DNA of 38,819 bases from Pseudobutyrivibrio sp. (lineage in GTDB: Bacteria > Bacillota > Clostridia > Lachnospirales > Lachnospiraceae): positions 1-38,819 of the forward strand of contig JAILAV010000065.1 of the NCBI GenBank assembly GCA_024681435.1, given 5' to 3'. Positions 1 to 4,932 of the stretch are shown piece after piece; the first letter of the stretch is position 1; each line of letters opens with the position of its first letter. The translations under genes were made by a program, and so were the position numbers. The notes under the pieces were generated by a model. That model saw nothing but the letters and a program-made list of their open reading frames with translations. It ran no database searches and was not told where the DNA came from.

Positions 1-465
1 CTTCAGCTTCAGGAGAAGCAGAAGGCTAAGTTCATCTATGGCGTACTTGAGAAGCCTTTCCGTAATTATTATGAGAAGGCTGACCGTCAGAAGGGTATGA
101 CAGGTGAAAACCTTATGACAATGCTTGAGAGCCGTCTTGATAACGTAGTATTCCGTATGGGATTTGCTCGTACAAGAAGAGAAGCTCGTCAGGTAGTTGA
201 TCACAAGATGTTTCTTGTAAATGGTAAGCCAGTAAACGTTCCTTCATACCTTGTAAAGGCAGGAGACGTTATCGAGGTTCGTGAGAAGTCAAAGAGCCTT
301 CAGAGATTTAAGGATATTACAGAGGTTACTGCTGGTAGAACAACTCCTGAGTGGGTAGATGTTGATGCAGAGAACCTTAAGGGTACAGTTAAAGAGCTTC
401 CTAACAGAGAGCAGATCGATGTTCCTGTAGACGAGATGCTTATCGTCGAGTTATATTCAAAATAA
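1..465 (+). CDS. rpsD: 30S ribosomal protein S4 (5' truncated by window start)
   Basis: Frame is open from base 1 ([68 protein letters not shown]...), the S4 S4-domain signature; followed by rpoA and rplQ. Confidence 0.97.
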
Positions 466-491
466 TAAAATTTAGTAAATGTTTACAAAAT

Positions 492-521
492 GCACTTATA
501 CAAGCTTGCTTGTATAAGTGC
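492..521 (+). repeat. Perfect 14-bp inverted repeat (hairpin) between rpsD and rpoA
   Basis: GCACTTATACAAGC-TT-GCTTGTATAAGTGC; no strong U-tract follows. Confidence 0.85.
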
Positions 522-594
522 GATTTGTTACAATTTTGCTATGCGGCAATGAGCGTTAGACTTAAAGTCTATTACATTATAAGGAGGCAATGTA

Positions 595-1554
595 GTGTTA
601 AATTTTGAAAACCCAAATATTGAAATCGTAGAGATTTCTGAGGACAAAAAATACGGCAGATTCGTTGTTGAGCCTCTTGAGAGAGGTTATGGTATAACAC
701 TTGGCAATTCTCTCCGTAGAATTATGCTTTCATCTCTGCCAGGAGCTGCAGTTAGCCAGATTAAGATTGAGGGCGTACTTCACGAGTTTAGTGCTATTCC
801 AGGCGTTAAAGAAGACGTTACAGAAATCGTTATGAATATCAAGGAGCTTGCTATTAGAAATAATAGTAGTTCTGATGAGCCAAAGACAGCATATATCGAG
901 TTTGAAGGAGAAGGCGTTGTTACAGCTGCCGATATCCAGGTAGACTCTGATATTGAAATTATTAATCCAGATCTTGTTATTGCTCACCTTAATGGTGGTA
1001 ATGATTGCAAGCTTTACATGGAGCTTACAATTACAAAGAACCGTGGTTATATTTCAGCTGATAAGAACAAGACACCAGATACTCCAATCGGCAAGATTGC
1101 AGTTGACTCAATTTACACACCAGTAGAGCGTGTAAATATGACAGTAGAAGACACTCGTGTAGGTCAGGTCACAGATTATGACAAGCTTACACTTGATGTA
1201 TATACAAATGGTACTATGGGACCAGATGAGGCAGTTTCTATGGCTGCTAAGGTTCTCAGCGAGCACCTTAATTTATTTGTAAATCTTTCAGAGGCTGCAC
1301 AGGATCTTTCAGTTATTGCTGATAAGCCTGATGATACAACAGGAAAGACTCTTGAGATGAGCATTGATGAACTTGAGCTTTCAGTTCGTTCATACAACTG
1401 CTTAAAGAGAGCTGGTATCAACACTGTAGCAGAGCTTTGCGACAAGTCACCTGATGACATGATGAAGGTACGTAACCTTGGTCGCAAGTCAATGGAAGAA
1501 GTAGAGCAGAAGCTTAGCGAACTTGGTCTTTCACTTAGATTAATTGAGGACTAA
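595..1554 (+). CDS. rpoA: DNA-directed RNA polymerase alpha subunit
   Basis: GTG start after AAGGAGG; N-terminal [26 protein letters not shown] and C-terminal alpha-[24 protein letters not shown]. Confidence 0.98.
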
Positions 1555-1586
1555 TTCGCATAGTTATAAGTAACAGGAAATTATTA

Positions 1587-1671
1587 CGTGAAATATAAGA
1601 CCGATGAGCATTTTCGCGCATGCCTTTCCATTAATCAAAGTTACGGGGTAAGACCGATGAGCACCTGTAAC
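1587..1671 (+). ncRNA. Tandem hairpins with identical 15-nt loop (TAAGACCGATGAGCA); putative cis-regulatory RNA upstream of rplQ
   Basis: CGTGAAA(1587-1593)/TTTCGCG(1612-1618) and GTTACGGG(1640-1647)/CCTGTAAC(1664-1671) each enclose TAAGACCGATGAGCA (1596-1610, 1649-1663). Confidence 0.6.
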
Positions 1672-1693
1672 GCCAGAAACAAGGAGAAAAGAA

Positions 1694-2218
1694 ATGGCAA
1701 AGTACAGAAAGTTAAGCAGAACATCTTCACAGAGAAAAGCACTTTTAAGAAATCAGGTAACTGAGCTTCTTTATCACGGAAAAATCGTTACAACTGAGGC
1801 TAAGGCTAAGGAAGTAAAGAAGATTGTTGAGCACATCATTACACTTGGCGTAAAGGAAAAGGATAACTTCGAAGAGGTTACTGTTCAGGCTAAGGTTGCT
1901 CGCAAGGACAAAGATGGTAAGAGAGTAAAGGAAGTTGTTGATGGCAAGAAGGTAACTGTATACGATACAGTTGACAAGAAGATTAAGAAGGATTCTCCAT
2001 CAAGACTTCACGCTCGTCGTCAGATGATGCAGGTTCTTTACACACCTACAGCTAAGGGTGCTAAGAAGAGCGAAACACACAAGGTTGATATGGCTAACTT
2101 TGTATTTGATGAGATTGCTCCAAAGTATGTTGACCGCAAGGGTGGTTACACACGTATCGTAAAGATCGGACCACGTAAGGGCGATGCTGCTATGGAAGTA
2201 GTTCTTGAGTTAGTATAA
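1694..2218 (+). CDS. rplQ: 50S ribosomal protein L17
   Basis: MAKYRKLSRTSSQRKALLRNQVTELLYHGKIVTTEAKAKEVKKIVEHIITL...; downstream of rpoA. Confidence 0.97.
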   Translation: MAKYRKLSRTSSQRKALLRNQVTELLYHGKIVTTEAKAKEVKKIVEHIITLGVKEKDNFEEVTVQAKVARKDKDGKRVKEVVDGKKVTVYDTVDKKIKKDSPSRLHARRQMMQVLYTPTAKGAKKSETHKVDMANFVFDEIAPKYVDRKGGYTRIVKIGPRKGDAAMEVVLELV

Positions 2219-2235
2219 TTTATAGACTTTCATTT

Positions 2236-2267
2236 AATCCCAGAACATTAGGTTCTGGGATTTTTTT
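2236..2267 (+). terminator. Intrinsic terminator after rplQ
   Basis: ATCCCAGAAC-ATTAG-GTTCTGGGAT followed by TTTTTTT. Confidence 0.9.
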
Positions 2268-2364
2268 GCATAAAAATATATCCGTAATTAAATTTATGAT
2301 GTATTATGAAACAAAAGAGTAAACAATAACGAACTAGTAAAATATACATACATGAGGTCAAATA

Positions 2365-3729
2365 ATGGCATCTGATTCAACGAAGAAGTTAACAGAAGGA
2401 AATCCTTTATTACTAATACTAGGATTTTCCATTCCTATGCTTGCAGGCTTGGTTTTCCAGCAAATGTATAATTTGGTGGATACAATTATAGTAGGTCAAA
2501 CATTAGGGGATAGTGCGCTTGCAGCTGTAGGTTCTACAGGCTCAATCAATTTCCTTATTAATGGTTTTTGTATTGGAGTATGCTCAGGATTTGCTATTCC
2601 AGTAGCCCAAAGATTTGGTGCTGAATCTTACGATTCTATGAGAAAATTTGTGGGTAATTCTGTAATCTTATCTGTGATATTCTCAGTGGCACTTACGACT
2701 ATAGTTAGTGTATTCTGTTATCAAATACTAGCTATAATGAGAACACCGACTGATATTATTGATTTAGCTTATTCTTATATATCAATAATTTTCTTTGGCA
2801 TACCTGTAACATTTTTATATAACCTTACAGCAGGTATAATGCGTTCACTTGGAGATAGTAAAACTCCTACTTACTTTTTAATAATGGCTGCAGGAATAAA
2901 TATAATTCTTGATATAGTCTTTATTATGGTTTTAAAGATGAATGTAGATGGACCGGCATTGGCTACCGTTATATCCCAGCTTATTGCAGGAGTCAGCTGC
3001 TTAATCTATATGAAAAAGAAATTCCCAATTCTAAAGATGTCAAAAAATGATTTAACATTAGGTCCACATCATACTAAAGTATTGATATCAATGGGCATAC
3101 CATTTGGTTTACAATACTCAATTACAGCAATTGGTTCAGTTATACTTCAAACTGCTGTAAATGGATTAGGCACAATAGCTGTTGCATCTATGACGGCAGG
3201 AGCAAAAGTATCAATGTTTGTTGTATGTCCTTTTGATGCTCTAGGTGCCACAATGGCAACATATGCTGGACAAAATGTAGGTGCGAAAGATATTCCAAGA
3301 GTAAAGAATGGAGTTTGGACAGCGCAGCTTCTAGGCACTATTTATGCAGTTATAATATTAATCATTCTATTCTTCGCAGGTAGATATCTACTTCGAATGT
3401 TTACCTCTACAGATATTGTAATTGAGCAAGCTATGATGTTCTTGTTAGCCAATGCAGTGACATATACATTCCTTGCTGCGGTAAATATTTTCAGATTTGC
3501 TATACAGGGGATGGGATTCTCTACATTTGCGATTTACTCAGGAGTGATGGAAATGATTGCAAGAATTCTTGTAGCATTCACATTCGTTCCAATGATTGGA
3601 TATGCAGGAGCAATATGGGCCAGCCCAGTAGCGTGGGTGTTTGCTGTAGTATTTTTGATTCCAGGATTTTATTATTGCTGTCGAAAACTTGATATAAAAT
3701 ATAAAGGAGTAGATACTTATCACCTATAA
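2365..3729 (+). CDS. MATE family efflux transporter
   Basis: 454-aa polytopic protein with GNPLLLILGFSIPMLAGLVFQQMYNLVDTIIVGQ, typical MATE N-terminus. Confidence 0.92.
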   Translation: MASDSTKKLTEGNPLLLILGFSIPMLAGLVFQQMYNLVDTIIVGQTLGDSALAAVGSTGSINFLINGFCIGVCSGFAIPVAQRFGAESYDSMRKFVGNSVILSVIFSVALTTIVSVFCYQILAIMRTPTDIIDLAYSYISIIFFGIPVTFLYNLTAGIMRSLGDSKTPTYFLIMAAGINIILDIVFIMVLKMNVDGPALATVISQLIAGVSCLIYMKKKFPILKMSKNDLTLGPHHTKVLISMGIPFGLQYSITAIGSVILQTAVNGLGTIAVASMTAGAKVSMFVVCPFDALGATMATYAGQNVGAKDIPRVKNGVWTAQLLGTIYAVIILIILFFAGRYLLRMFTSTDIVIEQAMMFLLANAVTYTFLAAVNIFRFAIQGMGFSTFAIYSGVMEMIARILVAFTFVPMIGYAGAIWASPVAWVFAVVFLIPGFYYCCRKLDIKYKGVDTYHL

Positions 3730-3762
3730 AACTATCAGCTATGCTAATAGAATATAACCCAA

Positions 3763-3790
3763 AGCCTCACAGGAATGTGAGGCATTTTTT
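3763..3790 (+). terminator. Intrinsic terminator after MATE gene
   Basis: GCCTCAC-AGGAAT-GTGAGGC followed by a T-run. Confidence 0.85.
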
Positions 3791-3832
3791 ATATCAAAAT
3801 ATAAGAAATGCCGCAAAATGTGGAATACAAGA

Positions 3833-3862
3833 TTGACTTTAGCGATTAAAAGTGCTAAAGTC
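3833..3862 (+). promoter_or_regulatory. Candidate sigma-A promoter overlapped by a 9-bp inverted repeat
   Basis: TTGACT-17 nt-TAAAGT; GACTTTAGC(3835-3843)/GCTAAAGTC(3854-3862). Confidence 0.6.
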
Positions 3863-3891
3863 TAGCAATGAAGATAAAAGAGAAGGAGAAG

Positions 3892-4932
3892 ATGGCTATG
3901 AAGAAAATAATAAGTACGATTCTTGTATCTGCTATGGCTTTTAGCTTGGTGGGCTGTGGAACAAATGCCGCTGCAGAAAAAGAAGCAAATTCAGCTTCAG
4001 AGACAACAAATGATGTTGAGGCAACTTCTGACGACGGTGAAACATATAATGTAGGCGTTATTCAGTTAGTTCAGCATCCAGCACTTGATGCCGCTACAGA
4101 GGGTTTTACTGATGCGTTAAAGGAAAAGCTTGGTGACAAGGTTACTGTAACAGTTGAGAACGCATCTGGCGATAATGCAACATGTGCTACAATCGCAAAT
4201 ACATTTGTATCTGATAATGTAGATTTAATTATGGCGAATGCAACACCTGCTATGCAGGCATGCTCAACAGCTACAAGTACAATACCAATCGTTGCAACAT
4301 CTATTACAGATTATGCAACAGCTTTAGGTATTCCAGTAAATGAGTGGGATGATGCAACAGGGGTTAATGTAACAGGTACTTCAGATTTAGCACCTCTTGA
4401 TGGACAGGCAGAAATGCTTAATGAGCTTTTCCCTGATGCTAAGGAAGTTGGAATTATTTATTGCTCAGGTGAGGACAACTCATTATTCCAGGCTAATAAA
4501 ATCACAGAGTATTTAGAGGATTACGGATATAATGTAACAGATTATACATTCTCTGATTCAGCTGATGTTGCAACTGTAGTTCAGACAGCATGTGGTTCAA
4601 GTGATGTGCTTTATGTTCCTACAGATAACGTAGCAGCTAGCTGCGCAGAGACAATCAATAATGTTGCTGTTACAGCAGGTGTACCAATCATCGCAGGCGA
4701 AGAAGGTATCTGCAAAGGATGCGGTATAGCAACACTTTCAATTTCATATTATGACATTGGTTATAATGCAGGACTTATGGCTTATGATATTCTTGCAAAT
4801 GGAAAGGACGTAGCTACATATAAGATTCAGTATGCTACAGATTTTACTAAGGAATACAACCCAGTAATTGCTGAAACTCTTGGTATTGAACTTCCAGACG
4901 ATTATGTTGCAATCAAAATGGATGAAGAATAA
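3892..4932 (+). CDS. ABC transporter substrate-binding lipoprotein (DUF534/TrpX-like)
   Basis: MAMKKIISTILVSAMAFSLVGCG lipobox; YNVGVIQLVQHPALDAATEGFTDAL typical of the family; ORF track start is 3868 but GGAG before the 3892 ATG fits better. Confidence 0.9.
   Translation: MAMKKIISTILVSAMAFSLVGCGTNAAAEKEANSASETTNDVEATSDDGETYNVGVIQLVQHPALDAATEGFTDALKEKLGDKVTVTVENASGDNATCATIANTFVSDNVDLIMANATPAMQACSTATSTIPIVATSITDYATALGIPVNEWDDATGVNVTGTSDLAPLDGQAEMLNELFPDAKEVGIIYCSGEDNSLFQANKITEYLEDYGYNVTDYTFSDSADVATVVQTACGSSDVLYVPTDNVAASCAETINNVAVTAGVPIIAGEEGICKGCGIATLSISYYDIGYNAGLMAYDILANGKDVATYKIQYATDFTKEYNPVIAETLGIELPDDYVAIKMDEE

Follow-up and report, generated by a model that had tools for sequence, protein, structure and literature searches.

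Twin hairpins with a conserved loop upstream of rplQ in Lachnospiraceae, a probable leader RNA for ribosomal protein L17

Why the junction between rpoA and rplQ in Pseudobutyrivibrio should carry the same 15-nt sequence twice, each time on a different stem, is the question raised by this locus. The window, that is, the whole 38,819-nt stretch of DNA analyzed, contains rpsD (cut), rpoA, and rplQ in this order, followed by a hairpin with a T-run; rplQ is therefore probably the last gene of its transcription unit. The rpoA-rplQ gap has a length of 139 nt, and the twin hairpins within it are intercistronic. The features of the locus, all on the plus strand, are as follows.

595-1554 (+): rpoA, RNA polymerase alpha, the upstream neighbor of the twin hairpins
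1576-1634 (+): possible outer stem of hairpin 1, GGAAA/TTTCC
1587-1618 (+): hairpin 1 (distal), stem 1587-1593/1612-1618, R1 covariance score 49.7 bits
1640-1671 (+): hairpin 2 (proximal), 8-bp stem 1640-1647/1664-1671, R1 score 51.4 bits
1680-1686 (+): ribosome-binding site region AAGGAGA, predicted from sequence, just 3' of hairpin 2
1694-2218 (+): rplQ, ribosomal protein bL17, the gene 3' of the element in every strong match inspected
about 2238-2267 (+): likely intrinsic terminator after rplQ, predicted as a hairpin followed by a T-run

A long near-perfect hairpin, GCACTTATACAAG/CTTGTATAAGTGC, is also present between rpsD and rpoA (492-521 of the window) and may serve regulation or processing within the operon.

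Sequence and structure of the twin hairpins

The 15-mer TAAGACCGATGAGCA occurs in exact copies at 1596-1610 and 1649-1663 on the plus strand, with starts 53 nt apart, just as a previous sequence-only reading of this DNA had described. No further copies were found in the window with up to 3 mismatches allowed, and the loop 14-mer was absent from the rest of the 2.23-Mb draft genome, which has no dispersed copies. By our own estimate, two identical 15-mers are expected by chance in a 139-nt gap at a rate of about 1e-5, and the pair is not a chance event. The two loops cap different stems of 7-8 bp, in agreement with the same reading, namely CGTGAAA/TTTCGCG (1587-1593 with 1612-1618) in hairpin 1 and GTTACGGG/CCTGTAAC (1640-1647 with 1664-1671) in hairpin 2.

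The extent of the loop required a correction: the 15-mer stands, but the preceding R (A1595 and G1648) and a base pair inside the loop had been missed. The loop of hairpin 1 is R-UAAGACCGAUGAGCA at 1595-1610 with the inner pair G1599-C1609, and that of hairpin 2 spans 1648-1663 with the inner pair G1652-C1662; the inner pair is recognized because of G-C to A-U changes in relatives. T1594 and T1611 of hairpin 1 stand opposite each other unpaired, at a position that is paired in relatives. The GGAAA/TTTCC outer stem is invariant in the genus, and covariation thus speaks neither for nor against it. Hairpin 2 is separated from the rplQ start codon by 22 nt. Compared to shuffled sequences, the rpoA-rplQ gap had no unusual folding energy (z = -0.25), and the evidence for the structure therefore rests on the comparison between genomes.

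Covariation of the stems and consensus of the loop

Pairing was assessed against a control with shuffled partners. Among 41 selected hairpins, 94.5% of cells were paired compared to 56.4% after shuffling, and all eight of the eight pairs change on both sides. The larger set of 92 hairpins from about 60 genera, likewise selected, gave 88.2% paired cells versus 55.0% in shuffled and 31-42% in slid alignments. In these 92 hairpins, covariation with changes on both sides was seen at each of the ten stem pairs as well as at the inner loop pair, which is 100% paired (86 G-C, 4 A-U, and 2 G-U). The test was repeated on hairpins chosen by the loop pattern alone, with no stem criterion: for the resulting 94 loops, the seven closing positions were 89.4% paired versus 50.8% (maximum 55.6%) when the 3' flanks were redistributed among the hairpins.

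The loop consensus from the 92 hairpins is R UAA G N CC R A N G (A) (N) G C R. This loop of 16-17 nt is nearly invariant, whereas stem sequence and length vary freely. The collecting pattern fixed UAA and nearly fixed CC, so the invariance at these positions is partly by construction; their conservation is supported by independent covariance-model matches. The nearly invariant loop on free but paired stems in about 60 genera demonstrates, by sequence comparison, that an RNA structure is under selection here and that the repeat is not a simple duplication, as had been proposed from the window alone. Loop and stems are conserved in homologous rpoA-rplQ gaps, the comparison on which that proposal had been made to depend.

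Distribution in Lachnospiraceae and beyond

Both loops were found upstream of rplQ in 18 of the 18 Pseudobutyrivibrio genomes with a readable rplQ start, the own genome included. Stems within this genus change on both sides, for example CGTGAAAT/ATTTCGCG, CGTGACGG/CTGTCGCG, CGTGGCTG/CGGCTGCG, and CATGGAAG/CATCCGTG, and only the fifth base of the loop varies (A, T, C), all others being fixed. Scanning of 85,462 species genomes for tandem loops returned 34 stretches, 27 of which come from Lachnospiraceae and are followed immediately by rplQ; five of these 27 lie outside Pseudobutyrivibrio and have unrelated but paired stems. The other seven matches were neither at rplQ nor in a stem context and were considered unrelated. 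The rejected pattern matches belong to Lysobacter, Treponema, Roseburia MAG, Nocardioides, Verrucomicrobia, Myxococcales, and Poseidoniales records.

Owing to variation in the loop, relatives were missed by an exact-pattern search of 299 family genomes, and covariance models were then used. The family search model built on the 41 hairpins detected the element in many more genera; among its best 30 loci, 27 are followed directly by rplQ (identified by pattern), and two are fortuitous matches to coding sequence. For an unselected sample, each genus was represented by one Lachnospiraceae genome; rplQ was identified in 120 such genomes, and 420 nt of upstream sequence was obtained for 100 rplQ loci from 99 genomes. 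The loop was present in 62 of these 100 regions, twice in 32 and once in 30, amounting to 94 loops in 10.3 kb, compared to 17 occurrences of the same pattern in 964 kb of other strand sequence, mostly coding and chiefly in rpmJ. About 38% of the sampled regions are without the loop pattern, most of their gaps being 12-90 nt and many only 12-40 nt long, and the element is therefore dispensable. In most genera, the 3' end of hairpin 2 lies about 20-40 nt upstream of the start codon.

Among 392 genomes of the class, all matches at E<=1e-3 are from Lachnospiraceae and all lie upstream of rplQ; no strong match was obtained outside the family in this set, the weaker ones (E 0.0036-0.047) not being at rplQ. 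The element was not found at unrelated genes in the own-genome, family, and class searches, which gave only weak coding matches elsewhere; the first-look filter scored 16-17 candidates per genome and could have missed weak copies.

Two further observations concern individual rplQ loci. One draft genome (G010) has two such loci (L164 and L200), both with leader-like sequence, which may reflect contamination (4%) or true duplication. Four genera that lack the twin-hairpin loop (L141, L159, L183, and L198) share the sequence AGTAAGCATAGTGAAGA in the rpoA-rplQ gap, preceded in 4 of 4 loci by a CCACTWA-like sequence; it is possibly a different rplQ leader.

Proposed function as an L17 leader and alternative explanations

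The structure and its association with rplQ are observed, and on this basis we propose, with a probability of about 0.74, that the element is a cis-acting rplQ leader that would be bound by L17 and would thereby repress translation of the L17 gene itself. Autoregulation by L17 appears to be the best-supported reading because all strong matches inspected precede rplQ only. By the reasoning applied to other leaders (Eckert and Weinberg 2020, PMC7247131), a single preceded gene makes its product, L17, the probable ligand.

The mechanism could operate as follows. One or two hairpins would present a protein-binding loop, RUAAGNCCRANG(N)(A/R)GCR, on a stem of arbitrary sequence; L17 in excess of free 23S rRNA would bind to the one or two loops between rpoA and rplQ, and the bound protein would lower translation initiation of rplQ. 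The simplest route would be occlusion, by which the 30S subunit is kept from the ribosome-binding site, whose start is about 10 nt downstream of hairpin 2. A second copy of the loop would probably raise affinity or sharpen the response. Since hairpin 2 is close to the start codon and no T-run follows it, control of translation is likelier than attenuation or termination. The predicted accessibility of the ribosome-binding site differs little with the element (0.48) and without it (0.58). No conserved on/off switch was found in the leader regions, and competing complementarity around the ribosome-binding site was not above that of shuffled sequences. Sequestration of the SD was rejected as a general switch, the TTCCA pairing upstream or with the SD being found in some genera only; CCA..TGGAG is commoner in regions with the element (25/62) than in those without it (3/38).

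The leader lies inside an operon, and products of rpoA or the S4 gene could therefore also be involved. The loops might bind S4, RNA polymerase alpha, or a dedicated RNA-binding regulator that controls L17 output from the shared operon. This would suit the position of rpsD (S4) and rpoA directly upstream in the window, as well as the conserved GUAA reported for the rRNA-like portion of the S4 leader in Firmicutes (PMC7247131), which recalls the RUAAG at the beginning of the loop. However, the only gene that the element precedes is rplQ, with rpsD and rpoA both lying 5' of it, so that ordinary control of those two genes is unlikely, and no Rfam S4 leader model matches the region; we regard binding by another protein as unlikely overall.

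Still less probable is an mRNA processing or stability element, in which a nuclease would cut or protect the hairpins and thus set the ratio of rpoA to rplQ message. The intercistronic position and the hairpins adjoining the ribosome-binding site would fit, but nucleases that recognize only stems would not conserve a loop of 16-17 nt while the stems vary, and the element was found at no other operon junction in the searches made. We give even less credence to a small-molecule or ion riboswitch with two aptamers. Tandem aptamers do occur among known riboswitches, and the loop is highly conserved; however, aptamers usually precede several gene classes rather than rplQ only, and a unit consisting of just one short hairpin would make a small aptamer. 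Finally, a non-functional recent tandem duplication or repeat element would explain two identical 15-mers close together but is hardly conceivable given the covarying stems in about 60 genera, the lack of dispersed genome copies, and the fixed place upstream of rplQ.

Resemblance of the loop to 23S rRNA

L17 autoregulation leads to the further question of whether the loop copies a part of the rRNA. The protein bL17 has been reported to mediate stable folding of H47-49 (PMC9935924). The best match of the loop profile in rRNA of the own genus is the 23S segment CUAAGGCCGACGgaagaAGCA, which is adjacent to the H47 region, at about positions 1640-1657 of E. coli. The segment near these positions reads UAAGGCCGRCGGRAGAAGC in nearly all Lachnospiraceae 23S loci examined (L069 about 3143; L229-L258), and either this sequence or its AAGU variant is present in all readable loci of the family (30/31 readable). 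The corresponding sequence is UAAGRC(C/G)RNCGGRAGAAGY in many other Clostridia and CAAGGCGCUUGAGAGAAC in E. coli. The segment resembles the leader loop with an insertion of 4-5 nt.

Statistical controls for this resemblance disagree: permutation of the pattern gave 0.4% for the composite and 3.4% for the first block, whereas the profile scan against Markov sequences gave 29%, with 115 of 400 random sequences as good, which is not significant. Four genomes, including the leader carriers G118 and G028, have G in the rRNA where the leaders keep A. The likeness to 23S near H47 is thus suggestive, a lead and not a result, with one of the two controls against it. We consider it a tentative idea, more doubtful than L17 binding as such, that the L17 leader copies the 23S domain III/IV border (about E. 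coli 1640-1657, beside H47) and would act as a dosage sensor in one or two copies, with a portable loop on interchangeable stems.

Two other 23S segments were rejected as the imitated site: H101 (GUGUAAG...GAGC), which reads CAGCU with a probably paired AG in the own-genus 23S, and E. coli 23S 359-374 (13/16 match), for which no such match was found in the own-genus 23S. The RF02541 search in one closed genome gave nothing, and 23S was then fetched by DNA similarity. A closed single-contig genome of the same genus (G307) has no 23S match by covariance model or DNA similarity, which is probably a masking or assembly matter.

Implications

The twin hairpins define an RNA family that is absent from the current Rfam library and is carried by many Lachnospiraceae of the gut and rumen. 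For L17, which binds early among the ribosomal proteins, the only autoregulatory RNA known to us is a single predicted leader, found in other phyla; if a major gut family has an L17 leader of its own that is unrelated to the first, control of this protein would be convergent. Such a compact RNA, with a loop of 16-17 nt on any stem, would serve the mapping of RNA recognition by L17, and the tight loop with its free stems lends itself to direct mutational tests. If the leader does copy 23S rRNA, its mRNA could reveal which RNA site L17 recognizes.

Comparison with known RNA families

Rfam 15 gave no match over the hairpins in window 1-4000 or in 20 relatives, which accords with the sequence-only reading, where the element had not been recognized as a known family. 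The only matches above the gathering score were to TwoAYGGAY, away from the hairpins, in two loci. These TwoAYGGAY RNAs (RF01731) are located in two other Lachnospiraceae rplQ loci, L079 589-754 (+) and L100 2264-2414 (+). A large set of unnamed microbiome RNA candidates, the main text on which does not mention L17, could contain the twin-hairpin motif (PMC8040213).

An L17 downstream element, L17DE, is named by Eckert and Weinberg (PMC7247131), who name no L17 leader in Firmicutes. L17DE is similarly a structured RNA associated with rplQ within Firmicutes, but it lies downstream of the gene, whereas the twin-hairpin element lies upstream. RF01708, which we take to be the Rfam entry for L17DE, had no match in the window or the 20 relatives. 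The S4 leaders of Firmicutes and Clostridia (PMC7247131) belong to the same rpsM-rpsK-rpsD-rpoA-rplQ operon and contain a GUAA or GAAA that is conserved. Located before rpsD or rpsM, they control the operon at its front end, in contrast to the element described here, which precedes rplQ only.

The closest parallel is the L17-Actino-Proteobacteria leader (RF03132), a predicted cis-regulatory RNA found only upstream of rplQ, whose likely ligand, according to Eckert and Weinberg (2020, PMC7247131), is L17. Both are hairpins with a conserved loop directly before the gene. RF03132 had no match at E<=1 in window 1-4000 or the 20 relatives, while the positive control recovered it in Nocardioides with 41.9 bits. 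As seen in Nocardioides, it has one conserved hairpin with the loop UACCUGAUACG on a conserved GC stem, whereas the Lachnospiraceae element has one or two hairpins with the loop RUAAGNCCRANG(N)RGCR on stems of free sequence and belongs to another phylum. Judged by these features, RF03132 and the twin-hairpin element are different RNAs, each placed before the gene of its likely ligand.
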